Of a DNA stretch of 64,000 nt, positions 1,028 through 22,806 are shown one piece after another. The first letter of the stretch is position 1. Each line of letters begins with the position of its first letter. The stretch is from positions 620,001-684,000 of the forward strand of contig NZ_JAPRAQ010000001.1 in the NCBI RefSeq assembly GCF_029989365.1, read 5' to 3'. Both the position numbers and the translations under genes were made by a program. Source of the DNA: Bradyrhizobium sp. Arg816. GTDB lineage: Bacteria; Pseudomonadota; Alphaproteobacteria; Rhizobiales; Xanthobacteraceae. Below the pieces are notes generated by a model. That model was not told the origin of the DNA. It saw nothing but the letters and a program-made list of their open reading frames with translations, and searched no databases.

Positions 1028-1149
1028 TGGCTTCCTCCCTGGTCTGTATTCTTATCCGGCACGGCAGACCAGTTGCCGCAACGGAACCTCGCATCACACC
1101 ATGCGCACTCAGGTGCGCGCCGAACCCTTTCAGGTTCTGGCAGAGCCTT

Positions 1150-3706: not shown

Positions 3707-3836
3707 CGTGCCTCCCGACGCACAATGCGTTTCCTACCCGCGTCTCAATGATTTTGTCAGCGCGGTTCACGCATTAAACAAAAGCCCGCGGCACAGAGCA
3801 ATACCGAAGACACGGGAATACAACGTCGAGGCGATG

Positions 3837-5282
3837 CTAGTGGCGCGGCCGATACAGTTCGCGCCACGCGGGAAGCCGCTCGGCATAGGCATCGACCAGT
3901 CTTGCGTCGGGTTCGAACGTCTCGATGCGCTGCGGCCGCGTGCACACGGCGGCGATCGCCTCACCGGTGACAGCAAGCCGCCCCAATCTCGCCGCACCGA
4001 ACGCCGCGCCGGTCTCGCCTCCGGCAAAGCGATGGACCGGAACATTCAGCACGTTTGCCAGCACCGAGAGCCAGAACCGGGACCGTGAACCACCGCCAAT
4101 GGCGTCGGCTTCCGTGATCGCAATGCCGGCATCCGCGAGCGCATCGCGGCAATCGGCGAGCGCGAAGGCAACGCCCTCAAGCACCGCCTGCACGATCGTC
4201 CCGCGATCGGTGCCATGGCTCAAACCATCCAGCATGCCGCGCACGGCGGGATCATCGTGCGGCGTCCGCTCACCCGCCAGATAAGGCAGGAAGCTCACAG
4301 GCGACGGCGCCTGCGGGCGCAATCCAAGCGGCGCCAGCAACTCGGCCTCGGTGGCGCCGAACAGGCGCGCGATCCAGGCCAGGCAGGAGGCGGCCGAGAG
4401 GATCGCGCCGGCCTGAATCCACATGTCGGGAATGGCGTGGCAGAACGTATGCACCGCGCGGTCCGGGTTGGCGGCGATTCTGCTGGTCGGTGCCAGCAAG
4501 GCACCCGAGGTTCCCAGAGACACGAACGCGGTTCCCGGCCGGATCGCGCCGATGCCGACGGCGCCCGCCGGATTGTCGCCGGCACCGCCCGCGATCACCG
4601 GCTGTCCGGTCATGCCCCAGCGCCGCGCCAGCTCGCCGCGCAGCGTGGTCGCGGGCGCACATCCCTCGACCAGACGCGGCATGTGATCGCGCGACAGGCC
4701 GGTCGCCGCCAGTGCTGCGTCCGACCAGTCCCGGCGCGCGGCGTCGAGCCACAGCGATCCCGATGCATCCGAGACGTCCTCGATGGCCTCGCCGCTCAGC
4801 ACCAGGCGCAGATAGGCCTTCGGCAGCAGCACGAGTTTCGTCGCCGCAAAGATTTCAGGCTCGTGCGTCGCGATCCAGAGCAGTTTTGGCGCGGTGAATC
4901 CCGGCATCGCCTTGTTGCCCGTCACCGCACGCAAGGCGGGCCAGCGTCGTTCCAGGACACGACACTCGGCGGCGGAGCGGCCGTCGTTCCAGAGGATGCA
5001 GGGCCGCAAGGGTCTCCAGCTCGCATCGAGCAGCATGGCGCCATGCATCTGGCCGGACAGCCCGATGCCTTCGACGGCCGCCAACTCGCCGGCATGCGTC
5101 GCCTTGAGGGCATCCAGTGTGGCAAAGGCCGCATCGATCCACTGTGCGGGGTCCTGCTCGTAATAGCCTGATTGCGGCGAGGCGGTCGCGAGCGGCCGGC
5201 TCTCGCTCGCAATCACGCGCTGGGCACCGTCGACGAGAACGGTCTTGACCGCCGAGGTGCCGAGATCGATGCCGAGATACAT
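3837..5282 (-). CDS. xylB: Xylulokinase-like FGGY carbohydrate kinase
   Basis: The 481-residue product starts MYLGIDLGTSAVKTVLVD, the phosphate-1 loop of the FGGY/actin-like fold, and near the C-terminus has GGGSRSRFWLSVLANVLNVPV, the typical adenosine-binding region of xylulokinases. It would phosphorylate D-xylulose or a related ketose or polyol with ATP. The start at 5282 is chosen because the family begins at this DLGTS motif; the open frame extends 38 residues upstream into the regulator gene's 3' end. It begins 13 bases after the LysR gene and precedes the sugar importer, so the kinase probably acts on what the importer brings in. FGGY substrate specificity is hard to predict. Confidence 0.8.
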   Translation of the reverse strand: MYLGIDLGTSAVKTVLVDGAQRVIASESRPLATASPQSGYYEQDPAQWIDAAFATLDALKATHAGELAAVEGIGLSGQMHGAMLLDASWRPLRPCILWNDGRSAAECRVLERRWPALRAVTGNKAMPGFTAPKLLWIATHEPEIFAATKLVLLPKAYLRLVLSGEAIEDVSDASGSLWLDAARRDWSDAALAATGLSRDHMPRLVEGCAPATTLRGELARRWGMTGQPVIAGGAGDNPAGAVGIGAIRPGTAFVSLGTSGALLAPTSRIAANPDRAVHTFCHAIPDMWIQAGAILSAASCLAWIARLFGATEAELLAPLGLRPQAPSPVSFLPYLAGERTPHDDPAVRGMLDGLSHGTDRGTIVQAVLEGVAFALADCRDALADAGIAITEADAIGGGSRSRFWLSVLANVLNVPVHRFAGGETGAAFGAARLGRLAVTGEAIAAVCTRPQRIETFEPDARLVDAYAERLPAWRELYRPRH

Positions 5283-5295
5283 GGCTGCTACCCGC

Positions 5296-6219
5296 TCACT
5301 TGGTCGCGTCCATCCAGATGCCCGGCTCCGAATGCTCGCGGATGTGGGTGACGAGGAAGTCGGAAAAAGCCCTGATCTTGGCGGGCAGCCCGGCACGGTT
5401 CTGGTAGGCGATGTTCATGGTGAGCAGCGGCAGCTCCCAATCCACCAGCACCGGGACGAGACGGCCCGCCGCGATGTCGCTTTGAACGATATAGAGCGGC
5501 TGGATGAGGATGCCGAGCCCTGCCAGCGCCGCACCGCGAATGACCTGGCCGTCATTGCTGTCGAGCGTCGGCGTGATGCGGACGGTCTGCGCGCCATGGC
5601 TCTTGCGCAGGCGCAGCGAATAGGGATCGTTCGCGAGATTGTAGACCAGCATGTTGTGGCGCGCGAGATCGGCGGGCTGCTCCGGCTCGCCGGCGCTTGC
5701 GAGATAGGAAGGCGCGGCGGCAAGCACGCGCCGCATCTGGCCGATGCGGCGGACGATGATGTTCGAATCCGGCTCCTGCTCGCGCGTCCGGATCGCCACG
5801 TCGATGCCAGCCTCGATGAAATCGGGATAGCGGTTGGCGGTCGTGATCTGCATGTTGAGCTTCGGATAGCGCGCGCGGAAGGAAGGCAGCATCGGCGCCA
5901 GATAGATCACCGCGAAAGACAGCGAGCTCGTGACCCGCAGCGTGCCCTGCGGCGACAGCGCGCGATCGCTGACGATGTCCTCGGCCTCCGCCAGTTCGCT
6001 CAGCACCCGGCTGGAGCGCTCCAGCAGCTCCTGCCCCGCCTCCGTCAACCACAGCCGGCGTGTATTGCGTTCGATCAGCCTGACCGCAAGGCGCTCTTCG
6101 AGCGCGCTGAGATGGCGGCTCGCCGCCGCATTCGACATGCGCAAGGCCTCGGCGGCTTTTGACAGGCTGCCGAGCTCGGCCGTCTTGGAGAACACCTCCA
6201 ATTGCAGCAGGCGATCCAT
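5296..6219 (-). CDS. LysR-family transcriptional regulator
   Basis: This 307-residue protein has an N-terminal winged helix-turn-helix (residues about 1-60, containing AELGSLSKAAEALRMSNAAASR) and a periplasmic-binding-protein-like effector domain, the standard LysR plan. It leads the minus-strand kinase and importer genes and is divergent, across 108 bases, from the hydroxyquinol-type operon on the plus strand. LysR genes commonly control the divergent operon, so it is the best candidate regulator of the 6328-17196 genes. The effector may be the aromatic intermediate or the imported sugar-like compound. The assignment to targets is inference. Confidence 0.9.
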   Translation of the reverse strand: MDRLLQLEVFSKTAELGSLSKAAEALRMSNAAASRHLSALEERLAVRLIERNTRRLWLTEAGQELLERSSRVLSELAEAEDIVSDRALSPQGTLRVTSSLSFAVIYLAPMLPSFRARYPKLNMQITTANRYPDFIEAGIDVAIRTREQEPDSNIIVRRIGQMRRVLAAAPSYLASAGEPEQPADLARHNMLVYNLANDPYSLRLRKSHGAQTVRITPTLDSNDGQVIRGAALAGLGILIQPLYIVQSDIAAGRLVPVLVDWELPLLTMNIAYQNRAGLPAKIRAFSDFLVTHIREHSEPGIWMDATK

Positions 6220-6327: not shown

Positions 6328-6651
6328 ATGTCGGGCCCGATCAGGCACATCGTGATGTGGCGGCTGCGCGGGGAGACGCCCGCGGAGCGTTCCGCGGCCC
6401 GTTCCAAGGTCAAGACCCTGTTCGAGGGCCTGCGCGGCCGGATCGACGGCCTCACCCACATCGAGGTCGGCGTTGACGTCAGCGATGTCGACTACGCCTG
6501 CGACGTGGTGCTGTTCTCCGAATTCACCGACCAGGCCGCACTCGCCGCCTATGCCACCCACCCGGAACATTTGCGCGTCCGCGAGGCGCTGGGCGACTTG
6601 CGGATCGGACGCTTCCAGGTCGATTATCCCATCAAAGAGACCGGCGCATGA
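6328..6651 (+). CDS. Dabb-domain (stress-responsive alpha/beta barrel) protein
   Basis: The 107-residue product matches the Dabb family of small dimeric ferredoxin-like barrels: HIVMWRL near the start, the GLTHIEVGVDVS strand-turn, and HPEHLRVREAL near the end. Members act as small enzymes or are of unknown function. The ATG at 6328 is chosen because the Dabb fold begins there and a GAGG sequence precedes it; an upstream frame reaches 6202 but only encodes promoter DNA. It overlaps the maleylacetate reductase gene by ATGA, so it is translationally coupled to ring-cleavage metabolism. A specific reaction cannot be assigned. Confidence 0.8.
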   Translation: MSGPIRHIVMWRLRGETPAERSAARSKVKTLFEGLRGRIDGLTHIEVGVDVSDVDYACDVVLFSEFTDQAALAAYATHPEHLRVREALGDLRIGRFQVDYPIKETGA

Positions 6652-7727
6652 TCGGTTCGTTCACCTTTGAAAACCTGCCCTGCCGCGTCGTATTCGGCAG
6701 CGGAACGCTGGCCTCGGCCAAAGCCGAGATCGAGCGGCTCGGCGGCAAGCGCGCGCTGGTGCTGACGACGCCCCAGCAGGAGGCGCAAGGCAAGAGATTA
6801 GGCGCAGCGCTCGGCCCGCTCTATGCCGGCATCTTTCCCGGCGCCACGATGCATACGCCGGTCGAGGTCACCGAGCGCGCGCTCGCGGCGATGAAAGCAT
6901 GCGAGGCCGACTGCGTCGTTTCACTCGGCGGCGGCTCGACCACCGGCCTCGGCAAGGCGCTGGCCTTGCGCACCGGAATCAACCAGCTCTGCATTCCCAC
7001 CACCTATGCCGGATCGGAAATGACGCCGATCGTCGGCCAGACCGAGAACGGCCTGAAGACCACGGTGCGCGACGCAGCCGTGCTGCCGGAGACCGTGATC
7101 TACGATGTCGACCTCACCCTGACGCTGCCGGCGAGCCTCGCTGCGACATCCGGCATCAACGCGATCGCGCATGCCGTTGAAGCGCTCTATGCCCGCGACA
7201 CCAATCCCGTGACGTCGCTGATGGCGGAGGAAGGCATCCGCGCGATCGCGCGCGCCCTCCCCGCCATTGCGGCCAAAAGCGATGACCGCGAGGCTCGCAC
7301 CGAAGCACTCTATGGCGCCTGGCTCTGCGGCGTCTGCCTCGGCACGGTCGGCATGGCGCTGCATCACAAGCTCTGCCACACGCTCGGCGGCACCTTCGAT
7401 CTGCCGCATGCCGAAACCCACACCATCGTGCTGCCGCATGCGCTGGCCTACAACGCACCGGCGGTGCCCGATGCGATGGCGCGGATATCGCGCGCGATCG
7501 GCGCGGCCGATGCGTCCCAGGGGCTCTACGAGCTCGCGAAGCGGCTGGGTGCGAAGCTGGCGTTGCGCGACATCGGCATGCCCGAAAGCGGCATCGACAA
7601 GGCGGCCGATCTCGCCGTCACCAACGCCTACTGGAACCCGCGCCCGCTCGAGCGCAATGCCATCCGCGAGCTGATCGCTCGCGCCTGGGCCGGCGAGCCG
7701 CCTGTTACCATCAAAGCGGCGGCCTGA
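6648..7727 (+). CDS. Maleylacetate reductase (iron-type alcohol dehydrogenase family)
   Basis: This 359-residue protein reduces maleylacetate to 3-oxoadipate with NAD(P)H, the step after hydroxyquinol ring cleavage. Visible features are the nucleotide-binding GGGSTTGLGKA, the CIPTTYAGSEMT segment typical of maleylacetate reductases, and the His-rich block HHKLCHTLGGTFDLPHAETH. Length equals the family norm. Its gene is coupled to the Dabb gene and followed 5 bases later by the amidohydrolase gene. Co-occurrence with the hydroxyquinol dioxygenase at 10044 strongly supports the call. Confidence 0.93.
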   Translation: MIGSFTFENLPCRVVFGSGTLASAKAEIERLGGKRALVLTTPQQEAQGKRLGAALGPLYAGIFPGATMHTPVEVTERALAAMKACEADCVVSLGGGSTTGLGKALALRTGINQLCIPTTYAGSEMTPIVGQTENGLKTTVRDAAVLPETVIYDVDLTLTLPASLAATSGINAIAHAVEALYARDTNPVTSLMAEEGIRAIARALPAIAAKSDDREARTEALYGAWLCGVCLGTVGMALHHKLCHTLGGTFDLPHAETHTIVLPHALAYNAPAVPDAMARISRAIGAADASQGLYELAKRLGAKLALRDIGMPESGIDKAADLAVTNAYWNPRPLERNAIRELIARAWAGEPPVTIKAAA

Positions 7728-7731
7728 AGCG

Positions 7732-9105
7732 ATGCGGCGCACGCTGATCAAATCCGCTGTCATCATCAGCATGGATGACGCGATTGGCGACCTCAACACC
7801 GGCGATGTGCTGGTCGAGGGCAGCCGCATCGTCGACGTGCGTCCATCGATCGACCTCGGCAGCGGCGCTTCCGAAACCGAGATCGTGGACGGCACCGGGC
7901 GCATCGTCATCCCCGGCCTCATCAACGCGCACATGCACACCTGGCAAACCGCGTTGCGCGGCTATGCCGCCAACTGGACGCTGCTGGAATATTTCCGTCG
8001 CATGCATGCCGGGCTCGCGACCGTGTTCCGGCCCGACGACATCCACATTGCGACCCTCGTCGGTGCGTTGAACCAGATCAATTGCGGCACCACCACGCTG
8101 GTCGACTGGTGCCACAACAATCCGACGCCTGATCATACCGATGCCGCCGTGCGTGGCCTGATCGAGAGCGGCATCCGCGCCGCCTTCTTCCACGGCTCGC
8201 CCAAGCCAGAGCCGAAGCCCGGCGAGCCGCATTTCTCCGAGATTCCGCATCCGCGCCGCGAAGTCGAGCGGCTGCTGGCCGGTCCCCTCGCCGACCGCGA
8301 TGGCCTCGTCACGCTCGGGCTTGCGATTCTGGGTCCGCATTATTCGACGCTCGACGTCGCCATGCACGATTTCCGCCTCGCGCGCGAACTCAACCTGATC
8401 GCATCCATGCATCAGGGCGGCGGCCCGGCCAAGACGCCCGGCGGCTGGGAGAAGCTGATCGAAGCCGGCCTCGTCGGCGCCGGCACCAACATCGTCCATG
8501 GCAACGACCTGCCCGACGATCTCCTCGACAAGATGGTCGGCCTCGGCGTGTCCTTCTCGGTGACGCCGGAGAATGAGATGATCCAGGGCCACGGTTTTCC
8601 GATCACCGGACGGCTGCTCAAGCGCGGCGTTCGCCCGACCATCGGGACCGACCTGGAATCCGTGCTGGCCGGCGATCTCTTCTCCGTCGCCCGCGTCGCG
8701 TTGTCGATGCAGCGGGCGCTCGACAATGCGGAGTCGCGTCAAGTGAACGGCACCATTCCGGCGACGACCACGATCCCCGTCCGCGAGGCGCTGCGCTGGA
8801 TCACGACCGAAGGCGCCCGCATGCTCGGCCGCGAGGGCCAGATCGGCTCGCTGACACCGGGCAAGCTCGCCGACCTCGTCGTCATCAACGCATCCGATCT
8901 CAACCTTGTCCCGGTGCACGATCCCGTCGCGACCGTCGTGATGCAGACGAGCCTCGCCAATATCGAGGCCGTCATGATCGGCGGCGCCTGGAAGAAGCGG
9001 GACGGCCGGCTTTTGGTTGACGGGCTGGACGCGAAGAAAGAGTTGCTGGCCCAATCTGGCCGGCGGCTGGTGCAGGATATCGAACGACAGGGACTCCCCG
9101 CCTGA
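7732..9105 (+). CDS. ATZ/TRZ-type amidohydrolase (aminohydrolase/deaminase family)
   Basis: This 457-residue protein is a metal-dependent hydrolase of the subfamily that includes hydroxyatrazine hydrolases and 8-oxoguanine or S-adenosylhomocysteine deaminases. The metal site is visible as NAHMHTWQ, a His in ASMHQGGGP, a His in IVHGNDL, and the Asp of IGTDLESVL. C-terminal LTPGKLADLVV is typical of amidohydrolases. It would remove an amino or other leaving group from a heteroaromatic or aromatic ring. Within a hydroxyquinol operon such an activity could deaminate or dehalogenate an intermediate, which is inference; the true substrate is unknown. Confidence 0.85.
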   Translation: MRRTLIKSAVIISMDDAIGDLNTGDVLVEGSRIVDVRPSIDLGSGASETEIVDGTGRIVIPGLINAHMHTWQTALRGYAANWTLLEYFRRMHAGLATVFRPDDIHIATLVGALNQINCGTTTLVDWCHNNPTPDHTDAAVRGLIESGIRAAFFHGSPKPEPKPGEPHFSEIPHPRREVERLLAGPLADRDGLVTLGLAILGPHYSTLDVAMHDFRLARELNLIASMHQGGGPAKTPGGWEKLIEAGLVGAGTNIVHGNDLPDDLLDKMVGLGVSFSVTPENEMIQGHGFPITGRLLKRGVRPTIGTDLESVLAGDLFSVARVALSMQRALDNAESRQVNGTIPATTTIPVREALRWITTEGARMLGREGQIGSLTPGKLADLVVINASDLNLVPVHDPVATVVMQTSLANIEAVMIGGAWKKRDGRLLVDGLDAKKELLAQSGRRLVQDIERQGLPA

Positions 9106-9117
9106 AGGCGCCAATGG

Positions 9118-10029
9118 ATGAGATCAATGACCGACGCTTCAAGGAATGTCGCTTTCATCGGGATCGGCAAGATGGGCCTGCCGATGTCGGCGCTCGTCGC
9201 CAAGGCCGGCTACGCCGTGACCGCATTCGATCAGAGCGCCGCCCGGATCAACGAGGCGCGTGCGCAAGGCATTTCGATCGCCGCTTCGCCGGCGCAGGCC
9301 GTGAGCGGCAAGGCCGCAATTATCACATCCCTGCCCGATGACGCCGCCTTGCGCGGTGCGTTGCTCGGCCCCGCTGGCCTGATCGCCGCAATGGCTGCTG
9401 GATCTGTTCTGATCGAGACCAGCACCGTGAGCGTCGAGGCCTCCACCGAAGTTGCGGCCGCGGCTCAAGCCCGTGGCATCGCCTATCTGCGTTCGCCGGT
9501 CTCCGGCAATGCCAGCATCGTTTATACCGGTGCCCTGACCTGCTTCGTCTCCGGGCCGAAGGATGCCTTCGAGAACGCAAAGCCGCTGTTCGCCGCCTTC
9601 ACCCGCGCCCAGACCTATCTCGGGCCGGCCGAGGAAGCGCGCTACGCAAAGCTCTCGGTCAATCTGATGATCGCGGTGTCAGCCGCGATGATGGCCGAGA
9701 GCCTTGCGCTGGCGCGCAAGGGCGGCATCGCCTGGCAGGACATTTTGAAGGTGCTCGATGATAGCGCGGTGGCCTCGCCAATGGTGAAGTACAAGACCGC
9801 GCCGCTGCGTACGCGCGATTTCGAGTCCACCTTCTCCTGCAAGCAGATGGCCAAGGATCTCGATCTCATCCTCGGCGCAGGCCACGCCGTCGGCGTGCCG
9901 CTGCAACTCGCAGCGCAGGTGCGCGAGACCTATGGCTCGCTGGTCGCGCAGGGCGACGGCGACACCGACTTCATCGCGACCGTCAAGCACCTGGAACGTC
10001 TGTCCGGGCTTGGCGAACCCAAGCTCTGA
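9118..10029 (+). CDS. 3-hydroxyisobutyrate dehydrogenase-family NAD(P)-dependent oxidoreductase
   Basis: The 303-residue product is a beta-hydroxyacid dehydrogenase. It has the N-terminal Rossmann motif GIGKMGLPM, the substrate-binding segment SPVSGNASIVYTGALTCF, and the catalytic lysine region YAKLSVNLMI. It would oxidise a hydroxyacid or reduce the corresponding aldehyde. Two starts are possible: 9118, with GAAGG nine bases upstream, and 9127, which begins MTDASRNVAFIG; they differ by three residues. It sits between the amidohydrolase and dioxygenase genes in one operon. Its role in hydroxyquinol metabolism is not evident from known pathways. Confidence 0.85.
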   Translation: MRSMTDASRNVAFIGIGKMGLPMSALVAKAGYAVTAFDQSAARINEARAQGISIAASPAQAVSGKAAIITSLPDDAALRGALLGPAGLIAAMAAGSVLIETSTVSVEASTEVAAAAQARGIAYLRSPVSGNASIVYTGALTCFVSGPKDAFENAKPLFAAFTRAQTYLGPAEEARYAKLSVNLMIAVSAAMMAESLALARKGGIAWQDILKVLDDSAVASPMVKYKTAPLRTRDFESTFSCKQMAKDLDLILGAGHAVGVPLQLAAQVRETYGSLVAQGDGDTDFIATVKHLERLSGLGEPKL

Positions 10030-10043
10030 TCGCGGAGACACCT

Positions 10044-10928
10044 ATGCGTAACTTCAACGAGACCACGATCACGGACGCGGTGCTGGAGCGGATCAAGGAC
10101 GCGACCGATCCGCGCATCAAACAGGTCAGCGAGGCGCTGGTACGCCACCTGCATGCCTTCGTCCGCGAGATCCGTCCGACCCAGAAGGAATGGGAATACG
10201 GCATCGACTTCCTGACCCGCACCGGGCACATGTGCGACGACAAGCGCCAGGAATTTATCCTGCTGTCCGACACGCTCGGCGTCTCCATGCTGGTCGACGC
10301 GATCAACCATCCGGTGCCGGAAGGGGCGACCGAGACGACGGTGCTCGGCCCCTTCTTCGTCCAGGCCGCGCCGGAGAAGGACAGCGGCGCCGATATCTCC
10401 GGCCCGATGGAAGGCGATCCGATGCTGGTCACCGGCTCGGTCTCGACCGTCGACGGACAACCGCTTGCCGGGGCCATCGTGGATGTCTGGCATTCCGACG
10501 ACGACGGCTATTACGACGTGCAGCAGCTCGACGACATCGGCGATCTCGCGATGCGCGCGCGCTTCCATACCGACGCCAACGGCCGTTTCCATTTCTGGTC
10601 GATCAAGCCGGCGGCGTATCCGATCCCGCATGACGGCCCGGTCGGCGAGATGCTGGAGGTGCAGGGCCGCCATCCCTGGCGTCCCGCGCATGTCCATTTC
10701 ATGATCTCCGCGCCCGGTTTCGAGCAGCTCGTGACCCATGTCTTCGTCGCTGGCGACAAATATCTCGACAGCGACGTGGTGTTCGGCGTCAAGGACAGCC
10801 TGATCCGCGAATTCACTGGCCATCCTGCCGGCCGTGCGCCCGATGGTCGCATGGTGGAGCGCGACTATTTCCACCTCAATTACGATTTCGGCCTGAAGCA
10901 GGTCGCGAGCAACGCAAGGGCCGCCTAG
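10044..10928 (+). CDS. Hydroxyquinol 1,2-dioxygenase (intradiol ring cleavage)
   Basis: This 294-residue iron(III) enzyme cleaves hydroxyquinol (benzene-1,2,4-triol) to maleylacetate. It has the helical N-terminal dimerisation domain (about residues 1-100, ending at VLGPFF) and the intradiol beta domain. The four iron ligands are visible as Tyr157 in DGYYDVQ, Tyr192 in AYPIPHDG, and His216 and His218 in RPAHVHFM. The PMEGDPMLVTG region is typical of hydroxyquinol rather than catechol enzymes. A GGAG Shine-Dalgarno sequence precedes the ATG. The maleylacetate reductase gene four genes upstream supplies the next enzyme. Confidence 0.93.
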   Translation: MRNFNETTITDAVLERIKDATDPRIKQVSEALVRHLHAFVREIRPTQKEWEYGIDFLTRTGHMCDDKRQEFILLSDTLGVSMLVDAINHPVPEGATETTVLGPFFVQAAPEKDSGADISGPMEGDPMLVTGSVSTVDGQPLAGAIVDVWHSDDDGYYDVQQLDDIGDLAMRARFHTDANGRFHFWSIKPAAYPIPHDGPVGEMLEVQGRHPWRPAHVHFMISAPGFEQLVTHVFVAGDKYLDSDVVFGVKDSLIREFTGHPAGRAPDGRMVERDYFHLNYDFGLKQVASNARAA

Positions 10929-10980
10929 GCTAAACGAAGGACCAACAAGAGTCCGACAAGGGAGCAGACGGGAGCTAGGG

Positions 10981-12375
10981 ATGGGACCGCGGGTCAGCAC
11001 GAGCATATTGGCCGATCGCCTCACCGGCATGATCGGCCCGCGCGCGAGCGTTGCGCGCGGCGTGCTCGATCAGCACGGGCAGAGCGAATCGCATTATCGC
11101 AATTTGCCGCCCGACATCGTCGTCTTCCCTGAAACCACGCAGGAAGTCGCGGAGATCGTGAAGCTCTGCGCCAGCGCTAGTATGCCGCTCGTTCCGTTCG
11201 GCGCGGGCACCTCGCTCGAAGGCAATGCGGCCGCGGTCGCCGGCGGCGTCTGCTTCGACTTCGCCCGGATGAACAAAGTGCTGACAGTGCACGACAGCGA
11301 CATGGATGTCGTGGTGCAGCCCGGCATTACGCGAAAGCAGCTCAATGCGGAGCTGCGCGGCACCGGACTTTTCTTCCCGATCGACCCCGGCGCCGACGCC
11401 TCGATCGGCGGCATGACGTCCACGCGTGCCTCCGGCACCATGGCGGTGCGCTACGGCACCATGAAGGACAACGTCATGGCGTTGGAGGTGGTACTGGCCG
11501 ACGGGCGCGTGATCCGCACCGCCAGGCGCGCGCGCAAGTCGGCCGCCGGTTACGACCTGACGCGGATGTTCGTCGGCGCCGAAGGCACGCTCGGCGTCAT
11601 CACCGAGGTCACATTGAAGGTGCATCCCGTGCCGCAGGCGATCTCGGCCGCGGTCTGCAGCTTCGACACCCTGCACGATGCTGTCGACACTGCGATCTCC
11701 GTGATCCAGTCTGCGATCCCCGTCGCCCGCATCGAGCTGCTCGACGACGTCATGATGCGCGGCATCAACGCCTACGCCAAGCTCGGCTATCGCGAAGCCC
11801 CGACCCTGTTCTTCGAATTCCACGGCTCCGAGAGCTCCGTCGCCGAGCAGGCCGAAGCCGCGCAGGCGATCGCCGCCGACCATGGCGGCCATGGTTTTGC
11901 CTGGGCCAAGGCGCAAGAAGACCGCAGCCGGCTCTGGCACGCCCGCGACAACACGCTTTATGCGGGCCTGGGCTTGCGGCCCGGCGCACGCGCCGTGATC
12001 ACCGATGTCTGCGTGCCGATCTCTCGGCTGGCCGAATGCCTGACCGAGACGCGGCGCGACGCGGACGAGCACGGTTTTACCGCCCCGATCGTCGGCCATG
12101 TCGGCGACGGCAATTTCCATATGCTGATCCTGATCGACCCGGCCAAGCCGGATGAGGCCAATGGCGCCAAAGCGCTGCAGGCCCGCATGGTCGCCCGCGC
12201 CATCGCCATGGACGGCACCTGCACCGGCGAGCACGGCATCGGGCTCGGCAAGATCGAATATCTCACCGATGAGCTCGGCGAGGCCGTCGACGTGATGCGA
12301 TCGATCAAGACCGCGCTCGATCCTGATGGACTGATGAATCCCGGAAAGATCTTTGCGAGCGGAGTGCACGCATGA
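10981..12375 (+). CDS. FAD-linked oxidase of the GlcD / D-lactate dehydrogenase family
   Basis: The 464-residue product has an N-terminal PCMH-type FAD domain (about 40-215; motifs VPFGAGTSLEGN, DPGADASIGGM and FVGAEGTLGVIT) and a C-terminal FAD-oxidase domain (GTCTGEHGIGLGK, MNPGKIF). Such proteins oxidise 2-hydroxyacids or sugar-acid-like alcohols and pass electrons to the respiratory chain. It follows the dioxygenase gene after 52 bases with no visible terminator, and overlaps the importer ATPase gene by ATGA. This ties the flavoenzyme to whatever the importer delivers, so it may catalyse an early oxidation of the imported compound. Confidence 0.88.
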   Translation: MGPRVSTSILADRLTGMIGPRASVARGVLDQHGQSESHYRNLPPDIVVFPETTQEVAEIVKLCASASMPLVPFGAGTSLEGNAAAVAGGVCFDFARMNKVLTVHDSDMDVVVQPGITRKQLNAELRGTGLFFPIDPGADASIGGMTSTRASGTMAVRYGTMKDNVMALEVVLADGRVIRTARRARKSAAGYDLTRMFVGAEGTLGVITEVTLKVHPVPQAISAAVCSFDTLHDAVDTAISVIQSAIPVARIELLDDVMMRGINAYAKLGYREAPTLFFEFHGSESSVAEQAEAAQAIAADHGGHGFAWAKAQEDRSRLWHARDNTLYAGLGLRPGARAVITDVCVPISRLAECLTETRRDADEHGFTAPIVGHVGDGNFHMLILIDPAKPDEANGAKALQARMVARAIAMDGTCTGEHGIGLGKIEYLTDELGEAVDVMRSIKTALDPDGLMNPGKIFASGVHA

Positions 12376-13898
12376 GCAGCGCCGCATTGGCCATCGAGCC
12401 CGCCTCACCCACGCCGCTGCTGGAGCTGCGCGGCATCAGCAAGGAGTTTCCCGGCGTCAAGGCGCTGGATGATGTGTCCTTTGCCGTCTTCCCCGGCGAA
12501 GTCCACATGCTGCTCGGCGAGAACGGCGCCGGCAAGTCGAGCCTGATGAAGGTGCTGTGCGGCGCCTACCGCGCCGATGCCGGCGAGTTCTACTACAAGG
12601 GCGACAAGGTCGCGATCTCTTCGACCGCGGATGCGCAGAAGCTCGGCATCGCCGTGATCTTCCAGGAATTCTCGCTGGTCCCCCATCTCGATATCGCCCA
12701 GAACATCTTCCTCGGCCGCGAGCCGAAGGGCCGCATTCCCGGCACCATCGACCGCCGCAAGATCCTGGCCGACGCCAGGCGCGTGCTCGGCACGATCGGG
12801 TTCGAGATCGACCCCTCCACCACCGTCGACAAGTTGGGGGTGGCGCAGCAGCAGATGGTCGAGATCGCCAAGGCGATCAGCCAGAACGCGCGCATCCTGG
12901 TCATGGACGAGCCGACGGCGGCGCTGTCCGACCGCGAGACCGAGCTGCTGTTCGCCCTGATCGCGCGGCTGAAGGCCGACGGCGTGTCGATCGTCTATAT
13001 CTCGCATCGCATGGCCGAGGTGTTCGCACTCGGCGATCGCATCACGGTGATGCGCGACGGCCGCCGCATCGACGGCGTTCGCCCGCCCGACGTCACGCCG
13101 GACCAGCTCGTCCGCATGATGGTCGGCCGCAACGTGGACATGACCTATCCGCGCAACTTCGCCGACCAGCCCGGCGAGCTGTTGCTCGAGGTCAAGGGCT
13201 TGAGCTCGTCGACCGGCATCTCCGATATCAACATCGAGGTGCGCCGGGGCGAGATCGTCGGCCTGTGCGGCCTGGTCGGCTCCGGCCGCAGCGAGGTCGC
13301 CCGCGCCATCTTCGGCGCCGATGCCGTGACGTCAGGCGAGATCATTTTCGACGGCAAGGCTATCTCAGGCGAGCCTGACCTTGCCGCCCGCCGCGGCATC
13401 GCGCTGATCCCGGAGAGCCGCAAGAGCGAGGGCCTCGCGCTACTGCGCTCGGTGAGCGACAATCTGGTGGTGTCGGCGCTGCGAAAACTGTTCCCGAGCG
13501 GCCTGTTCGACCAACGCAGCGCGCAGCGCACCTCCGATGGCCTGATCCGGCAGTTGCGCATTGCCACACCAAGCGCGCGCCAGACCGTCGGCCTGCTCTC
13601 GGGCGGCAACCAGCAGAAGGTCGTGATCGGCAAGTGGCTGGCGGCCGGCTCAAAGCTCTTCATCTTCGACGAGCCGACGCGCGGCATCGACATCGGCGCC
13701 AAGTCCGAGATCTTTGCGCTGATCGACCGGCTGGTCGCCGAAGGCGCGGCGGCCTTGATGATCTCGTCCGAGCAGGTCGAGATCTGCCATGTCTGCGACC
13801 GCGCCTATGTGATGCGCGAGGGTCGCATCGCCGGACACCTGACCCGCAGCGAACTGACCGAGGAGAACATCGTGCGACTGGGGATGCATCATGCGTGA
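12372..13898 (+). CDS. Second ribose-type ABC transporter, ATP-binding protein
   Basis: This 508-residue double ATPase has Walker [10 protein letters not shown] at residues 49-57 and a degenerate second nucleotide site (GLVGSGRSE) with signature LSGGNQQK, the RbsA/MglA pattern. It overlaps the flavoenzyme gene upstream (ATGA) and the permease gene downstream (8 bases), so all are co-translated. It energises import through the two permeases that follow. It is homologous in plan to the ATPase at 2183-3706 but clearly diverged, so this is a separate transporter. Confidence 0.92.
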   Translation: MSSAALAIEPASPTPLLELRGISKEFPGVKALDDVSFAVFPGEVHMLLGENGAGKSSLMKVLCGAYRADAGEFYYKGDKVAISSTADAQKLGIAVIFQEFSLVPHLDIAQNIFLGREPKGRIPGTIDRRKILADARRVLGTIGFEIDPSTTVDKLGVAQQQMVEIAKAISQNARILVMDEPTAALSDRETELLFALIARLKADGVSIVYISHRMAEVFALGDRITVMRDGRRIDGVRPPDVTPDQLVRMMVGRNVDMTYPRNFADQPGELLLEVKGLSSSTGISDINIEVRRGEIVGLCGLVGSGRSEVARAIFGADAVTSGEIIFDGKAISGEPDLAARRGIALIPESRKSEGLALLRSVSDNLVVSALRKLFPSGLFDQRSAQRTSDGLIRQLRIATPSARQTVGLLSGGNQQKVVIGKWLAAGSKLFIFDEPTRGIDIGAKSEIFALIDRLVAEGAAALMISSEQVEICHVCDRAYVMREGRIAGHLTRSELTEENIVRLGMHHA

Positions 13899-14841
13899 AG
13901 CCGCGGTCGTCTCACAACCCAATCCGCTGCAGCGCATTCCCGGCGTTGCGATCGTCTTGGTGCTCCTGATCGCGCTGTTCAGCGCGATCGCGCCCGGCTT
14001 CCTCTCGGTCGCCAACCTCTCCAATGTGCTGGTGCAGTCGACCATCCTGACCATGCTGGCGCTACCGATGACCTTGATCATCATGACCGAGGGGCTGGAT
14101 TTGTCGATGGGCGCGGTGCTGACGCTGACCTCGCTCTGCGTCGCCATCGTGTCGCTTGCGACCAAGTCGATGCTGCTGGGCCTCGGCGCCGGGCTTCTCG
14201 TCGGCGCGGCCTTCGGCTTCGCCAACGGCTGGCTGGTCGCCATCGTCGGCATTCCGCCCTTCGTCGCGACGTTGGGCACGCTCGGCATGGCGCAGGGCCT
14301 GTCGCTGATCGTCAGCGACGGCCAGAGCGTGGTCGGTATCCCCCACAGCGTGCGCGACATCTATTCGGCGACGCTTCTGGGCGTGCCAGTGCCCATCGTG
14401 ATGGCGCTGGTGACCTATGCGGCCTTCCACGGACTGCTCTACCACACCCGCTTTGGCACCTACATCTTCGCGCTCGGCGGCAACCGCGAGGCGCTGCGCT
14501 ATGCCGGCCTCTCGCCGAACAAGCTGCTGATCGCGGTCTATGCGATCGGCGGCGCCATGGCCGGTATCGCGGGCCTGCTGATGACCGCGCGGATGAATTC
14601 CGGCCACCCGACTGCGGGCCTCGGTCTCGAATTCGACGCCATCGCCGCTGTCGCGGTCGGCGGCACCTCGTTCGAGCGCGGCAATGGCTGGCTGCTTGGC
14701 ACGTTGCTCGGCGTGATCGCGGTCGGCGTGCTGCGCAATGGGCTCAACCTGATCTCGATGCCCTCCTCGGTGCAGGTCGCAAGCGTCGGCGTCCTCGTCA
14801 TCGTCGCTCTGTTCCTCGACGGCCTCAGGAGCCGCGCATGA
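13891..14841 (+). CDS. Second ribose-type ABC transporter, permease 1
   Basis: This 316-residue membrane protein of the BPD_transp_2 family has the hallmarks MTEGLDLSMGAVLT and AVAVGGTSFERGNG, with hydrophobic segments throughout. It begins inside the 3' end of the ATPase gene and overlaps the next permease by ATGA. It probably pairs with the product of 14838-15815 as a heterodimer. Confidence 0.9.
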   Translation: MREAAVVSQPNPLQRIPGVAIVLVLLIALFSAIAPGFLSVANLSNVLVQSTILTMLALPMTLIIMTEGLDLSMGAVLTLTSLCVAIVSLATKSMLLGLGAGLLVGAAFGFANGWLVAIVGIPPFVATLGTLGMAQGLSLIVSDGQSVVGIPHSVRDIYSATLLGVPVPIVMALVTYAAFHGLLYHTRFGTYIFALGGNREALRYAGLSPNKLLIAVYAIGGAMAGIAGLLMTARMNSGHPTAGLGLEFDAIAAVAVGGTSFERGNGWLLGTLLGVIAVGVLRNGLNLISMPSSVQVASVGVLVIVALFLDGLRSRA

Positions 14842-15815
14842 CCGACATCTCCAAAGAGGCGATGATGCCGTCCCGCTCATTCCTGTCGCAGGACGCGATC
14901 CAGGTGTTTTACCGCCTGCTCGCAGCGCTGCTGATCTGCGCGGTGCTCGCCGTGCTCAGCGATTCCTTCCTGAGCCTCGGCAATATCCTCAACGTGCTCC
15001 GACAAGCGAGCCTGACCTTCTTCATTGCGTCGGGACTGACGCTGGTGGTGCTCACCGCCGGTCTGGATCTCTCCGTCGGCGCCAATGTCGCGCTGTCCGC
15101 CTGTATCGCCGGCACCGTGATCCACAAGACCGGTTCGCCGGCGCTCGGCATCCTCACCGGGCTCGCCTGCGGCGGCATCGTTGGTCTGCTCAACGGCATC
15201 ATGGTCACCGCGCTGCGCATCCCCTCTTTCATCGCCACCTATGGCATGCTCTGGGTGCTGAACGGCCTCACCTACTGGTACATGGCGGGCGAAACCCTGC
15301 ACGGTTTCCCGGCAGGATTCCGCCAGATCGGCAGCGGCTATCTGTTCGGCCTGCCTATCCCGGTCTATCTACTGCTGGTGTTCCTCGGGATCGGGACGCT
15401 GTTTGCGCAACGCACGATCTGGGGCCAGGAGATCTATGCGATCGGCGCCAATCCGGTCGCCGCCCGCCTCTCCGGCATTCCGGTCGCGCGGCGATTGCTG
15501 CTGGTCTATGCGGTATCAGGCACCATGGCAGGGCTGGCCTCGATCATCTTCCTGTCGCGCCTCAATTCGGCCGAAGCCGACATCGGCGAAAGCCTGACGC
15601 TGCCGGCGATCGCGGCCGTGCTGATCGGCGGCACCTCGCTGTTCGGAGGTGTCGGCACCGTGTTCGGCACCTTCATCGGCGCGCTGATCCTGACGCTGGT
15701 GCTGAACGGCATGAACCTGTTGTCGGTCAGCGCCAACTGGCAGCCGCTCGTCACCGGCATCATCGTCATTCTCGCGGTCTGGCTCGACATGAAGACCCGC
15801 CGCCGCGCGCAATGA
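14838..15815 (+). CDS. Second ribose-type ABC transporter, permease 2
   Basis: This 325-residue permease of the same family has TAGLDLSVGANVA and AVLIGGTSLFGGVGT. AGGAG precedes the ATG by seven bases, and the gene overlaps permease 1 by four bases. Two separate permeases distinguish this importer from the one-permease system at 1150-3706. The C-terminus ends in the basic tail MKTRRRAQ. Confidence 0.9.
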   Translation: MTDISKEAMMPSRSFLSQDAIQVFYRLLAALLICAVLAVLSDSFLSLGNILNVLRQASLTFFIASGLTLVVLTAGLDLSVGANVALSACIAGTVIHKTGSPALGILTGLACGGIVGLLNGIMVTALRIPSFIATYGMLWVLNGLTYWYMAGETLHGFPAGFRQIGSGYLFGLPIPVYLLLVFLGIGTLFAQRTIWGQEIYAIGANPVAARLSGIPVARRLLLVYAVSGTMAGLASIIFLSRLNSAEADIGESLTLPAIAAVLIGGTSLFGGVGTVFGTFIGALILTLVLNGMNLLSVSANWQPLVTGIIVILAVWLDMKTRRRAQ

Positions 15816-15857
15816 GCTCTTAGAAATCCAACAAGCAAAATGAGGGATGGAGGCTAC

Positions 15858-16832
15858 ATGAAACAGACACTGGGCTATCTGGCGCTGCCGCTGCTGATGG
15901 CGGCCGCGTTCAATACGCAAGCGCGCGCCGACGGCGAGACCATCGCCGTGTTCACCAAGAACCAGACCAATCCGTTCTTCCAGACGGTGCGGGTCGGTGC
16001 CGACAACATGGCGAAAGCGCTGAACGCGAAGACGCTGCAGTACATCCCGACCAAGCCGGACTCGATCCCCGAGCAGCTCAGCCAGATCGAGGACGTCGTG
16101 GTGAAGAAGCCGAGCGCGATCGTCTTCACGCCGGTCGACTACAAGGCGATGGTGCCGGGCGTCGAGAAGGTCAACGAGGCAAAAATCCCCGTCGTCAACA
16201 TCACCGACCGTTCCGCCGGCGGCAAGTTCCTCTCCTTCGTCGGCGCCGACGATTACAGCCTTGGCCTCGAAACCGCGCGCTTCCTGCTCAAGACTTTGGG
16301 CGGCAAGGGCAACATCGTCATCATCGAGGGCGTCAAGGGCTCGCTGACCAACGTCGACCGCGTCCGCGGCTTCAACGACGCGCTGAAGGAGAATTCGGGC
16401 GCCAAGCTGCTGGCCTCGCAGCCCGGCAACTACCAGCGGCTGCAGGCGCTCCAGGTCATGGAAAACCTGATGCAGTCGAACGCGCAGATCGACGGCGTGC
16501 TGGCGGCCAACGACGCCATGGCGGTCGGCGCGATCGAGGCGCTCGACGGTGCCAATCGCAAGGCCCAGGTGATCGGCATCAACGGCACCAAGGAAGCGAT
16601 CGACGCGATCAAGTCCGGCAAGCTGCTTGCGAGCGGCGACTACAACGGATTTGCGCAAGGCTGTCTCGGCACCATGATGGCGATCCGCAGCTTGCGCAAC
16701 CAGCCTGTCATTTCCGAGATCGTGCTGAAGCCGACCGTCATCACCAAGGACAATTACCAGCCGTTCGACGTGCCGCTGGAGCAGCGGACCTGCCCGACCT
16801 TCGAGGACGCCGGCAAGCTCGGCGCCAAGTAG
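15858..16832 (+). CDS. Second ribose-type ABC transporter, periplasmic binding protein
   Basis: The 324-residue protein has a signal peptide of about 24 residues ending ARA before DGETIAVF, and a Peripla_BP_4 fold (KNQTNPFFQTV, LAANDAMAVGAIEAL, GINGTKEAIDAI). The ATG at 15858 is preferred over the in-frame ATG at 15840 because a good GGAGG lies a few bases before it and the signal peptide starts there. It supplies solute to the permease pair just upstream. The ligand is not known; operon context suggests a hydroxylated ring or sugar-like compound that feeds hydroxyquinol metabolism. Confidence 0.9.
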   Translation: MKQTLGYLALPLLMAAAFNTQARADGETIAVFTKNQTNPFFQTVRVGADNMAKALNAKTLQYIPTKPDSIPEQLSQIEDVVVKKPSAIVFTPVDYKAMVPGVEKVNEAKIPVVNITDRSAGGKFLSFVGADDYSLGLETARFLLKTLGGKGNIVIIEGVKGSLTNVDRVRGFNDALKENSGAKLLASQPGNYQRLQALQVMENLMQSNAQIDGVLAANDAMAVGAIEALDGANRKAQVIGINGTKEAIDAIKSGKLLASGDYNGFAQGCLGTMMAIRSLRNQPVISEIVLKPTVITKDNYQPFDVPLEQRTCPTFEDAGKLGAK

Positions 16833-16854
16833 CCCAACCGCTGATCACAAGCAC

Positions 16855-16878
16855 GGACGGCCGCCTCCGCGGCCGTCC
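16855..16878 (+). terminator. Perfect 10-bp hairpin after the binding-protein gene
   Basis: GGACGGCCGC (16855-16864) and GCGGCCGTCC (16869-16878) pair perfectly around the loop CTCC. No T-run follows. It lies between the binding-protein gene and the YciI gene and could be a partial terminator or a 3' stabiliser that sets higher expression of the upstream genes. Confidence 0.5.
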
Positions 16879-16908
16879 CAACAACACCAACACGTCAACG
16901 GAGACATC

Positions 16909-17196
16909 ATGCTGTTCGCCATTCACGCCCTCGACCGCGCCGGCGCGCTGCCGACCCGGCTCGCCAATTACGACGCCCACAAGGCCTTCCTGAGCGACAC
17001 ATCGCGCTTCGGCGTCAAGATCGTGATGTCGGGGCCGCTGGTCTCCGACGACGGCGCCAACATGATCGGCAGCCTGTTCCTGATCGAGGCACCCGGCCGC
17101 GCCGAGGTCGAAGCTTTCAACCGCGCCGATCCCTTCGCCGCAGCCGGGATTTGGGAAAAGGTCACGATCACAGGCTTCCTGCGCCGCCAGGGCTGA
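16909..17196 (+). CDS. YciI-family protein
   Basis: The 95-residue product is a single YCII domain: a ferredoxin-like barrel with the putative catalytic His24 (YDAHKAFL), the SGPLVSDDG turn at 41-49 and NRADPF at 71-76. GGAG precedes the ATG. The family contains TftG, which eliminates chloride from 5-chlorohydroxyquinol in 2,4,5-T degradation and is encoded beside a hydroxyquinol dioxygenase and a maleylacetate reductase. The same three gene types share this operon, so a related elimination on a hydroxyquinol or quinone intermediate is possible but unproven. It ends only 5 bases from the convergent peptide-transporter genes. Confidence 0.82.
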   Translation: MLFAIHALDRAGALPTRLANYDAHKAFLSDTSRFGVKIVMSGPLVSDDGANMIGSLFLIEAPGRAEVEAFNRADPFAAAGIWEKVTITGFLRRQG

Positions 17197-17201: not shown

Positions 17202-18179
17202 CTACGGCGCCTCTTCGAGGTGACAGGCCACCCATTGCTCGGGTCCGGTCGAACGCAGCGTCGGCTCCTCCGTCCGGCAGCGATCGAAGACGTATGGGCA
17301 ACGGGTGTGGAAGCGGCACCCGCTCGGCGGATTGATGGGGCTCGGCACGTCCCCCTTGAGGATGATGGGATTGCGCTGGGCTCCGGGCTCGGGCAGCGGG
17401 ACCGCGGAGAGCAGCGCCTTGGTGTAGGGATGCCTTGGCACGGCAAAAATCTCGCGGCGCGGCGCCACCTCGACGATCTTGCCCAGATACATCACCGCGA
17501 CCCGATGGGTCATGTGCTCGACGATGGCGAGGTCATGGCTGATGAACAACAGCGCAAGGCCGAACTCGCGCTGGAGATCCTGCAATAGATTGACGATCTG
17601 CGCCTTGACCGAGACGTCGAGCGCGGAGACCGCCTCGTCGCAGACGATCAGCTCGGGCTCGGCTGCCAGCGCCCGCGCGATGCCGATGCGCTGACGCTGG
17701 CCGCCGGAGAATTCGTGCGGCCGGCGGTTCAGCGCCTCGCGCGGCAGCCGCACGGTGTCCATCAGCGCCGTGACGCGCGTTTCGAGATCGATGGCTGACT
17801 TGGCGAGGCCGAAATTGCGGATCGGCTCGGCCAGGATGTCGCGCACGCGCATGCGCGGGTTGAGGCTGGAGAACGGATCCTGGAACACCACCTGCACGCG
17901 GCGGCGCATCTGGCGCATCGTGCTTGGATGGGCGTCGTCGATGCGCTGGCCGTCGAGGATCACCTGGCCCGAGGTGATGTCGAACAGCCGCAGGATGGCG
18001 CGGCCGACCGTCGACTTGCCGCAACCGGACTCGCCGACCAGCGACAGCGTCTCGCCACGCGCGATCTCGAAGGATACACCGTCGACCGCATAGACCCATT
18101 CGGACTTGCGGCCGAACAGGCCGGTCTTGACCGGAAAGTGCTTCTTGAGGTCGTTGACCTGGAGCAACGGAGGGCTCAT
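17202..18179 (-). CDS. Dipeptide-type ABC transporter ATP-binding protein (DppF-like), system A
   Basis: This 325-residue ATPase has Walker [10 protein letters not shown], signature [15 protein letters not shown] and the C-terminal oligopeptide-transporter tail with cysteines ([10 protein letters not shown]). The start at 18179 is chosen because it overlaps the DppD-like gene by ATGA. It is the last gene of the long minus-strand cluster and meets the YciI gene tail to tail. With the DppD partner it powers uptake of a peptide-like solute. Confidence 0.9.
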
Positions 18180-19165
18180 GCCGCGATGGCCCCCTTGGCG
18201 GCGTAGTGGCATGCGGCGACGTGGCGAGGCGCCTTCTCCTCAAGGCCCGGCGCGTATTGGCGGCAGAGATCGGTCGCGAGCGCGCAGCGGCCGGCGAAGA
18301 CGCAGCCAATGATGGGCTTGCGCAGATCGGGCACCTGCCCCGGGATTTCGGCCAGCCGCCGCGCGGTGCCTGTTAGTGACGAGCCGAGCCGCGGCACTGC
18401 GCCAAGCAGGCCCTGCGTATAGGGATGACGCGGCGAGCGGAACAGCTCGGCCACCGGCGCCTCCTCGACCTTGCGGCCGGCATACATCACCATGACGCGC
18501 TCGGCGATCTCGGCGACGACGCCGAGATCGTGGGTGATCAGGATGATCGCCGCACCGACCCGGCGCTTGAGATCGAGCATCAGCTTCAGGATCTGTGCCT
18601 GGATGGTCACGTCGAGCGCGGTGGTCGGCTCGTCCGCGATCAGGAGCTTTGGATTGCAGGCCAGCGCGATCGCAATCATCACCCGCTGGCGCATGCCGCC
18701 GGAAAGCTGATGCGGATATTCGCGCACACGCCGCTTCGGCTCGGGAATGCCGACCAGCGTCAGCATCTCGATCGCATGCGCCTCGGCCGCCTGCTTGTCG
18801 AGGCCCTGATGGATCATCAGCGTTTCGCGGATCTGGCGCCCGACCGTCAGAACCGGGTTGAGGCTCGTCATCGGCTCCTGAAAGATCATCGAGATGTCGT
18901 TGCCGCGGATGGCGCGCATCTCGCGGTCGGACAGTTGCAGCAGGTCCCTGCCCGCGAAGCGGACGGCGCCTGCGATCCTGCCCGGCGGCTCCGGAATCAG
19001 CCGCATCAGCGACATCGAGGTCACCGACTTGCCGCAGCCGGATTCGCCAACAATGGCGAGCGTCTCGCCTTCGTTGACATGAAAGGACACGCCGTCGACC
19101 GCACGGTTGATGCCGCCGGGCGTGCGAAAGTGGGTCTGGAGGTTCTCGACTTCGAGCAAAGCCAT
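18176..19165 (-). CDS. Dipeptide-type ABC transporter ATP-binding protein (DppD-like), system A
   Basis: The 329-residue ATPase starts [13 protein letters not shown], with Walker [10 protein letters not shown], signature [15 protein letters not shown] and the C-terminal oligo_HPY region ([13 protein letters not shown]). The ATG at 19165 agrees with the family; the frame runs 18 residues further upstream into the intergenic spacer. It forms a heterodimer with the DppF-like ATPase, whose gene overlaps its 3' end. Confidence 0.9.
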
Positions 19166-19184
19166 CTCGATCAACCCCTCGACA

Positions 19185-21046: not shown

Positions 21047-21063
21047 CTGGCTTCAGCGTACCA

Positions 21064-22665: not shown

Positions 22666-22732
22666 GAAATCCTCCCAGTAGTGCCGTGATGCCGGCCATC
22701 GTTGGCCAAAGGCAGGTGAAACCAGAACCCGT

Positions 22733-22753
22733 TGGCGTGCAAATGGTATGCCA
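22733..22753. promoter_or_regulatory. Imperfect dyad, candidate operator upstream of importer system A
   Basis: The 21-base sequence TGGCGTGCAAATGGTATGCCA has 7 of 10 symmetric base pairs around its centre. It lies about 70 bases before the binding-protein ATG at 22665, where an operator would be expected. The outer TGGC/GCCA arms and the TGGTATGCCA half resemble sites of GntR-type repressors, but no GntR repressor gene is adjacent. Confidence 0.35.
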
Positions 22754-22806
22754 CTAACCGGGCCTTCGCCAGCGCGATCTCATCGGGATTTCGACCGGTC
22801 CAAGCA

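Follow-up and report, generated by a model that had tools for sequence, protein, structure and literature searches.

The genes Swit_4887-4894 of Rhizorhabdus (Sphingomonas) wittichii RW1 correspond to dxnCDEFGHI, and the title of their source names a 4-hydroxysalicylate/hydroxyquinol cluster (PMC3425912). In this dxn cluster a hydroxyquinol 1,2-dioxygenase (HQD) and a maleylacetate reductase (MAR) are encoded next to each other, with 58% and 59% identity, respectively, to proteins of the operon that we describe here: 11 genes at positions 6328-17196 of a 64,000-base stretch of DNA from Bradyrhizobium sp. Arg816 (C1:620001-684000 of a 9.7 Mb genome; the whole stretch is called the window below). 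The dxn cluster differs from our operon in that it carries a monooxygenase, a CoA-transferase and a thiolase, while no CUT2-family sugar importer, beta-hydroxyacid dehydrogenase (bHAD), YciI protein or amidohydrolase is encoded near its HQD. The clusters for resorcinol (graRDBAC), 4-nitrophenol and 2,4,5-trichlorophenoxyacetate (tft) are also alike in having HQD and MAR, a likeness that we draw from their descriptions; these clusters use linked two-component or flavin hydroxylases, whereas the window has no match to the three hydroxylase families searched for, PF01494 (FAD_binding_3), PF08028 (Acyl-CoA_dh_2) and PF11794 (HpaB_N), with Rieske, P450 and other oxygenases not searched. No operon of this kind was found described in open-licence PubMed Central, outside which most subscription papers lie, and the same is true of four further HQD operons (L187, L194, L226 and L214) that are compared with it below.

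The operon and its conservation

All 11 genes lie intact on the plus strand, with intergenic gaps of -8 to +76 bases. In order, they encode a Dabb (alpha/beta barrel) protein (6328..6651; PF07876, E=2.5e-23), MAR (6648..7727), an amidohydrolase of family NF006056, also PRK08204 (7732..9105), an NAD(P)-dependent bHAD (9118..10029; PF03446 and PF14833), HQD (10044..10928), an accessory FAD-linked D-2-hydroxyacid dehydrogenase of the D-lactate type (10981..12375), the two-domain CUT2 importer ATPase (12372..13898; PF00005 twice), two permeases (13891..14841 and 14838..15815; both PF02653), a periplasmic binding protein of the ribose-binding-protein type (15858..16832; PF13407) and a YciI protein (16909..17196; PF03795). 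The Dabb start at 6328 and the binding-protein start at 15858 are plausible, the latter from a signal peptide read in the translation; the longest open reading frames (ORFs) open at 6202 and 15840. A sequence-only reading of this DNA had named these enzymes and a complete importer on a single plus-strand run, and all of them are found where that reading had placed them. Its description of the flavoenzyme as GlcD-like is loose: the protein is indeed a flavoenzyme, but it reaches 530.6 bits with the D-lactate dehydrogenase 8jdc, its nearer relative, while for GlcD the score is 343.9 bits and the cut-off 567.9. A LysR-type regulator (5296..6219, minus strand; Pfam HTH_1 and LysR_substrate) faces the operon divergently.

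One scan with the HQD gave 80 loci, nearly all from Bradyrhizobium or Tardiphaga; three end at contig edges. The LysR gene is present, at the thresholds used, in 72 of the 80. A search for genes that always co-occur had been proposed in the sequence-only reading, and in 65 of the 77 untruncated loci all 11 genes do occur in the same order; because of this the arrangement is not a matter of chance. That reading would also have been undermined if the importer did not travel with the enzymes. It does: a CUT2 ATPase lies near the HQD gene in 72 of 76 Bradyrhizobium-type loci, and importer, amidohydrolase, bHAD, HQD and MAR are found together in Tardiphaga, on two Bosea plasmids (L083, L110), in Skermanella rosea (L086) and in G587 (L165), which belongs to another family of the same order. 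The Skermanella unit has weaker importer similarity and includes a nitroreductase, a BKACE-type protein and ThuA. Two loci (L046, L070) lack the flavoenzyme only, and it is absent or reduced in L165 and L086 as well, so that the flavoenzyme is dispensable and stands outside any required route; to this extent the earlier suggestion that hydroxyquinol is made by the amidohydrolase together with the dehydrogenases has to be narrowed. No Dabb protein was recognisable, at the threshold used, in L079-L082.

The closest solved relatives of the HQD are the hydroxyquinol 1,2-dioxygenase 1tmx (307.3 bits) and the 6-chlorohydroxyquinol dioxygenase 8r2x, while the best match among catechol dioxygenases (2azq) reaches only 135.6 bits and the protein stays below the NCBIfam cut-offs for catechol and chlorocatechol dioxygenases. 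Of 17 positions in 1tmx that we take to be iron ligands or pocket residues, 16 are identical in the HQD, the sole change being F108 to Leu; the four Tyr/His positions that are presumably the iron ligands are all kept. MAR, a protein of the Fe-ADH families, matches 3jzd (450.7 bits; named as an iron-containing alcohol dehydrogenase) and the maleylacetate reductases 3w5s (433.6 bits) and 3hl0 (420.7 bits). It is well supported by these likenesses that HQD would open the hydroxyquinol ring and that MAR would reduce maleylacetate to 3-oxoadipate. For the steps beyond, the genome encodes PcaF (701.7 bits; cut-off 597).

The importer is complete and has the parts of CUT2 sugar importers of the ribose, arabinose, allose and inositol types, namely a two-domain ATPase, two PF02653 permeases and a Peripla_BP_4 protein. 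It differs from these in that its proteins fall under every equivalog cut-off shown (151.1 bits against 337 for the RbsB model, with the AraG/RbsA-like ATPase under both of its cut-offs) and in that the binding pocket is altered. When the binding protein is aligned to 2ioy, at ribose-contact positions that we take from the E. coli list, N13, F15, F16, D89, R90 and N190 are kept and F164 is Tyr; R141, D215 and Q235 are replaced by V, N and Y, which sets the protein apart from the ribose importer (Rbs). The pattern is shared across 72 aligned rows, with Asn at N13 in 71 and at N190 in 71, Val or Ile at R141 in 70, Asn at D215 in 66 and Tyr at Q235 in 66. The protein keeps six contact positions and resembles binders of single sugars; a polyol-type site of which one half has changed would fit a ligand other than ribose.

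A possible route to hydroxyquinol without a ring hydroxylase

We tentatively propose, at a little short of an even chance, that the operon is a self-contained unit for the catabolism of a small, sugar-like compound with many hydroxyl groups, cyclitol-like in structure, which is aromatised to hydroxyquinol without an oxygenase. In this scheme, whose ligand class, order of steps and freedom from any oxygenase we infer, the CUT2 importer would take up a small polyhydroxylated compound, most probably a carbocycle (a deoxy-inositol, for example); bHAD would oxidise one of the ring's alcohol groups; and non-oxygenase steps (hydrolysis, water loss, tautomerisation) leading to hydroxyquinol would fall to the amidohydrolase, YciI and Dabb proteins. 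As formula arithmetic, quercitol (C6H12O5) less 2 H and 2 H2O is C6H6O3. HQD and MAR would then give 3-oxoadipate, to be passed to the 3-oxoadipyl-CoA route, whose genes lie in other parts of the genome, and a ring hydroxylase would not be needed. The YciI protein resembles TftG, presumably a YciI-fold 5-chlorohydroxyquinol dehydrochlorinase, the likeness here being one of fold family, with a His and a DPF motif.

If this proposal is true, cyclitols, of which legume roots contain plenty, would be broken down by a second route, via an aromatic ring, in addition to the iol pathway already known, and aromatisation would be a catabolic step for a polyol. Hydroxyquinol would then not always be a sign of aromatic pollutant or lignin breakdown, and a function would be found both for amidohydrolase family NF006056, which is named only 'hypothetical protein', and for the YciI and Dabb proteins repeatedly encoded next to HQDs. 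Even if it is wrong, the operon represents a widely conserved, importer-linked Bradyrhizobium pathway without a known substrate.

The amidohydrolase (606.8 bits against the family cut-off of 391) sits by sequence in the TRZ/ATZ-deaminase branch, and this would suit an amino-substituted ring, aminophenol- or aminocyclitol-like, that the enzyme deaminates. The HxH, H, H and D metal ligands and E282 are kept in 29 of 29 distinct members of the family, but none of the 29 has the Glu of H-x-x-E, which would lie three residues beyond the His of strand 5, while alignments show it in the three best solved relatives (7ww2, 3hpa and 4dyk). Because no member has this Glu, it appears unlikely that the window amidohydrolase is a standard deaminase, and we regard an amino ring as a very improbable substrate. 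The sequence-only reading had offered a sugar-like or an amino-substituted ring; the former fits the importer and the latter is disfavoured.

An importer of the sugar type could also read the sugar-like part of a conjugate in which hydroxyquinol or a similar phenol is bound as a glycoside, ether or ester; a dehydrogenase would oxidise that part, and the amidohydrolase or a lyase would free the ring, the side chain passing through the D-2-hydroxyacid dehydrogenase. In agreement with this, a D-lactate-type dehydrogenase is present in most Bradyrhizobium operons, relatives of the amidohydrolase lie near GMC oxidoreductases in L105 and L106, with an SMP-30/gluconolactonase family protein in L106, and the Skermanella locus has ThuA. 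However, the operon shows no glycoside hydrolase and can do without the flavoenzyme, and the binding protein looks like a binder of single sugars, and we consider a conjugate improbable.

Neighbourhoods of hydroxyquinol dioxygenase genes

Features were counted within 9.5 kb of HQD genes, or to the contig end, with models for MAR, amidohydrolase, bHAD, YciI, Dabb, the CUT2 ATPase and three hydroxylase kinds; the hydroxylase models derive from 18 proteins encoded in loci of this analysis, and other hydroxylase types may be missed. A first sample consisted of 25 loci from 40 of 831 matched HQD plasmid records (four, without a usable gene table, were scanned with the models). In its 11 hydroxylase loci outside Bradyrhizobium and Bosea there is no CUT2 and no bHAD, YciI occurs once (L193) and Dabb four times. 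Since Dabb is found in these 4 of 11 hydroxylase-linked loci too, it seems to accompany hydroxyquinol pathways in general. Set against them are seven CUT2-linked groups, from Bradyrhizobium, Tardiphaga, Bosea, G587, Skermanella, Paraburkholderia (L187) and Sinorhizobium (L194). The contrast between the two sets, which was drawn up post hoc, with some rows close relatives and with L165/G587 taken from an amidohydrolase search, gives Fisher p=3e-5 for bHAD (7/7 vs 0/11) and p=0.002 for YciI (6/7 vs 1/11). For CUT2 against hydroxylase p=0.008, or p=0.07 with Bosea represented by L110, which has both. Nine loci have neither CUT2 nor hydroxylase (L084, L085, L087, L106, L196, L198, L200, L088 and L191), the last two being also without MAR.

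For a second sample, HQD relatives at E<=1e-75 were sought in 398 and 385 genomes and found in 32 and 27; of the 68 distinct HQD places, 17 from the same genus as the window and one sampled before were set aside, leaving 50 loci. A hydroxylase is present in 20 of these, where CUT2 and bHAD never occur and YciI occurs once (L225). The other 30 show no hydroxylase; CUT2 is found in one of them (L226) and bHAD in another (L214). Over both samples, bHAD is present in seven of eight CUT2-linked groups (all but L226) and in none of the 31 hydroxylase-linked loci, which have CUT2 in 0/31 and YciI in 2/31. This association of importer and bHAD, as opposed to hydroxylase, is better evidence than the missing hydroxylase. 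That a hydroxylase is lacking was considered as proof of a new route and dropped, since of the 28 sampled loci with HQD and MAR 17 have a linked one by the models and 11 do not. The absence noted in the sequence-only reading therefore holds for the three families in the window and is weak evidence.

Four of these HQD operons, L187, L194, L226 and L214, resemble that of the window: each combines an importer with HQD and MAR, and all except L226 also have bHAD and YciI; no hydroxylase was detected in any of them by the models used. In Paraburkholderia (L187) there are a type II dehydroquinate dehydratase, CUT2, a Zn-dehydrogenase, bHAD, YciI, HQD, MAR and an epimerase-like protein, and in Sinorhizobium (L194) bHAD, a short-chain dehydrogenase (SDR), two Zn-dehydrogenases, YciI, a Gfo/Idh/MocA protein, HQD, MAR and CUT2. 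The best NCBIfam model for this Gfo/Idh/MocA protein is inositol 2-dehydrogenase, at 109 bits against a cut-off of 355, which places it outside that family. L226 comprises LysR, HQD, two Gfo/Idh/MocA proteins, a Peripla_BP_4 binding protein, a CUT2 ATPase, a permease, Dabb and MAR, without bHAD or YciI. Zn-, SDR- or Gfo/Idh-type dehydrogenases thus stand in place of the amidohydrolase in these three loci (no close amidohydrolase relative was found by the models in L187 and L194), while in L214, which has a CoA-transferase, thiolase, bHAD, MAR, LysR, HQD, a TRAP importer, YciI and Dabb, TRAP replaces CUT2. The bHAD of the window is 57% identical to that of Skermanella L086, 42% to that of L187 and 40% to that of L194; its YciI protein is 54% identical to that of L194 and 45% to that of L187, with the same His and DPF motif. 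The common theme of L187 and L194, as their genes suggest, is alcohol oxidation and sugar uptake and not oxygenation; if L214 is self-contained, hydroxyquinol formation there would be left to bHAD, YciI and Dabb only.

In a tree of 80 HQD proteins the nine CUT2-linked rows need at least six label changes, also when well supported branches alone are used, and L187, L194 and L226 are scattered among hydroxylase-linked rows, separate from one another and from the window group. Because of these changes, the link of HQD to sugar-type importers has arisen, or been lost, more than once. With more reserve than for the operon itself, we suggest that it may be one of several independently assembled pathways of soil bacteria that convert a cyclitol to hydroxyquinol by dehydrogenation and dehydration, with no ring-hydroxylating oxygenase, and thence to 3-oxoadipate. 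This suggestion predicts the same oxygen balance in L187, L194, L214 and L226 from unrelated upper genes.

Several observations weigh against our proposal for the operon, in addition to the post hoc nature of the contrast above. The binding protein loses three polar ribose contacts (R141V, D215N, Q235Y). L077 keeps importer, HQD and MAR, with amidohydrolase and bHAD gone, and the sole amidohydrolase relative in its genome is 36% identical; L074 is without MAR and amidohydrolase; and L067, L072, L075 and L078 retain front parts only, L067, L072 and L078 being MAR-HQD loci without upper genes. No amidohydrolase relative was found at E<=1e-60 in the genomes of L067, L072 and L074. Because of these reduced Bradyrhizobium loci (L067, L072, L078, L077 and L074), importer and amidohydrolase are not strictly tied. 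In Burkholderia anthina (L107) and Shinella (L108) the genes of amidohydrolase relatives (48-49% identity) overlap with one for a flavin monooxygenase, so that, with the GMC oxidoreductases near those of L105 and L106, the family works beside both kinds of oxidation. The second sample is consistent with the pattern but underpowered (CUT2 in 1/50 and bHAD in 1/50), and 28 of its 50 loci have none of CUT2, bHAD, YciI, amidohydrolase and hydroxylase.

To the same side belong seven of the 80 loci (L036, L038, L048, L052, L054, L061 and L063) in which a MarR gene and a gene for a FAD_binding_3 monooxygenase of 568-569 amino acids lie just behind LysR, and Bosea vaviloviae L110, in which two FAD_binding_3 genes and a MarR gene whose product is 77% identical to that of L036 lie beside the operon. 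The monooxygenase of the seven loci shares 58% identity with the RW1 plasmid protein Swit_4892, which, from gene order, we take to be DxnD acting on 4-hydroxysalicylate. These eight loci suggest that the operon can share its hydroxyquinol with an ordinary hydroxylase route. They also realise in part the ordinary cluster, with its hydroxylase nearby, that the sequence-only reading had named as the finding that would count against it.

This raises the alternative that the pathway is an ordinary one with an unlinked hydroxylase: a phenolic precursor of the resorcinol or hydroxysalicylate type would be hydroxylated by an enzyme encoded elsewhere, the operon would provide the cleavage of the ring, and importer, amidohydrolase and bHAD would process a precursor or a side chain. 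The loci of the sample in which HQD and MAR have no linked hydroxylase agree with this, as do the 42 PF01494 and 28 PF08028 matches in the window's own genome, all of them outside the window (PF11794 has no match anywhere in that genome). On the other hand, the whole operon, with its upper module, is kept in 7 of 7 hydroxylase-bearing loci, CUT2 and bHAD are missing from all 31 hydroxylase-linked HQD loci elsewhere, the closest own-genome relative of the monooxygenase, among the 12 best PF01494 loci, is 36% identical, and the importer is of the sugar type. We therefore hold an unlinked hydroxylase to be a serious, if unlikely, explanation, and keep oxygenase-free aromatisation of a cyclitol-like compound as our proposal.

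Flanking genes and further loci

Behind LysR, at 80-5396 on the minus strand of the window, lies a second sugar-type set (binding protein- and permease-like ORFs, a double ABC ATPase and an FGGY kinase), parts of which adjoin the operon in 25-27 of the 80 loci. After the operon, at 17202-24630 on the minus strand, are oligopeptide-type ABC importer genes, with matching genes in 30-34 of the 80. In the partial locus L075 an acyl-CoA-dehydrogenase-like match lies 6.6 kb away. A contig labelled Frankia sp. RB7 (L066) has the operon at Bradyrhizobium-level identity (84-96%) and is probably mislabelled or contaminated.

The window's genome has two further HQD-like genes, at C12:161489 (55%) and C11:152643 (41%). 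The latter adjoins PcaF and two further dioxygenase-like ORFs. The former (L130) was followed as a lead to a hydroxylase and given up: its scanned surroundings hold no MAR or hydroxylase by the models, and its neighbours among the scanned ORFs are kinase, beta-lactamase-fold and NMT1-type transport genes. A link to chlorophenoxyacetate was likewise set aside, as the accessible text of the report on Bradyrhizobium RD5-C2 describes tfd/cad genes and no hydroxyquinol route (PMC8446748).

The overlapping monooxygenase and amidohydrolase genes mentioned above (L107:12412-15389 and L108:12421-15389) adjoin alpha/beta hydrolases, and one of the two comes from a sorghum root isolate. Sorgoleone was considered as substrate, the amidohydrolase relative of L107 being on a plasmid of the sorghum isolate, and was rejected, with no literature support in open-licence PubMed Central. 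In G473 (L166) a CUT2 importer, an ABM-domain protein and an amidohydrolase of the window's family (54%) are faced by an adenine-deaminase-like gene; its binding protein has a different pocket, so that this locus does not serve as a guide to the ligand, and no HQD was found in the G473 genome at E<=1e-50.

Eight HQD loci (L084, L085, L087, L204, L205, L229, L230 and L232), mostly with MAR, have a SnoaL-like protein and often a xylose-isomerase-like TIM barrel. L084 and L085 have a type II dehydroquinate dehydratase, and a hydroxylase lies within 9.5 kb only in L232; this group is possibly one more hydroxylase-free entry to hydroxyquinol. Under L192, two plasmids, one of 246,192 bases labelled Dysgonomonadaceae zrk40 and one of 246,197 bases from Martelella lutilitoris, have the same 57.2% match and are probably a single plasmid under two names. 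HQD copies with one in-frame stop were seen at G596:C1:1964401, G355:C3:332177, G277:C115:37717, G184:C110:48884 and G378:C22:138761.

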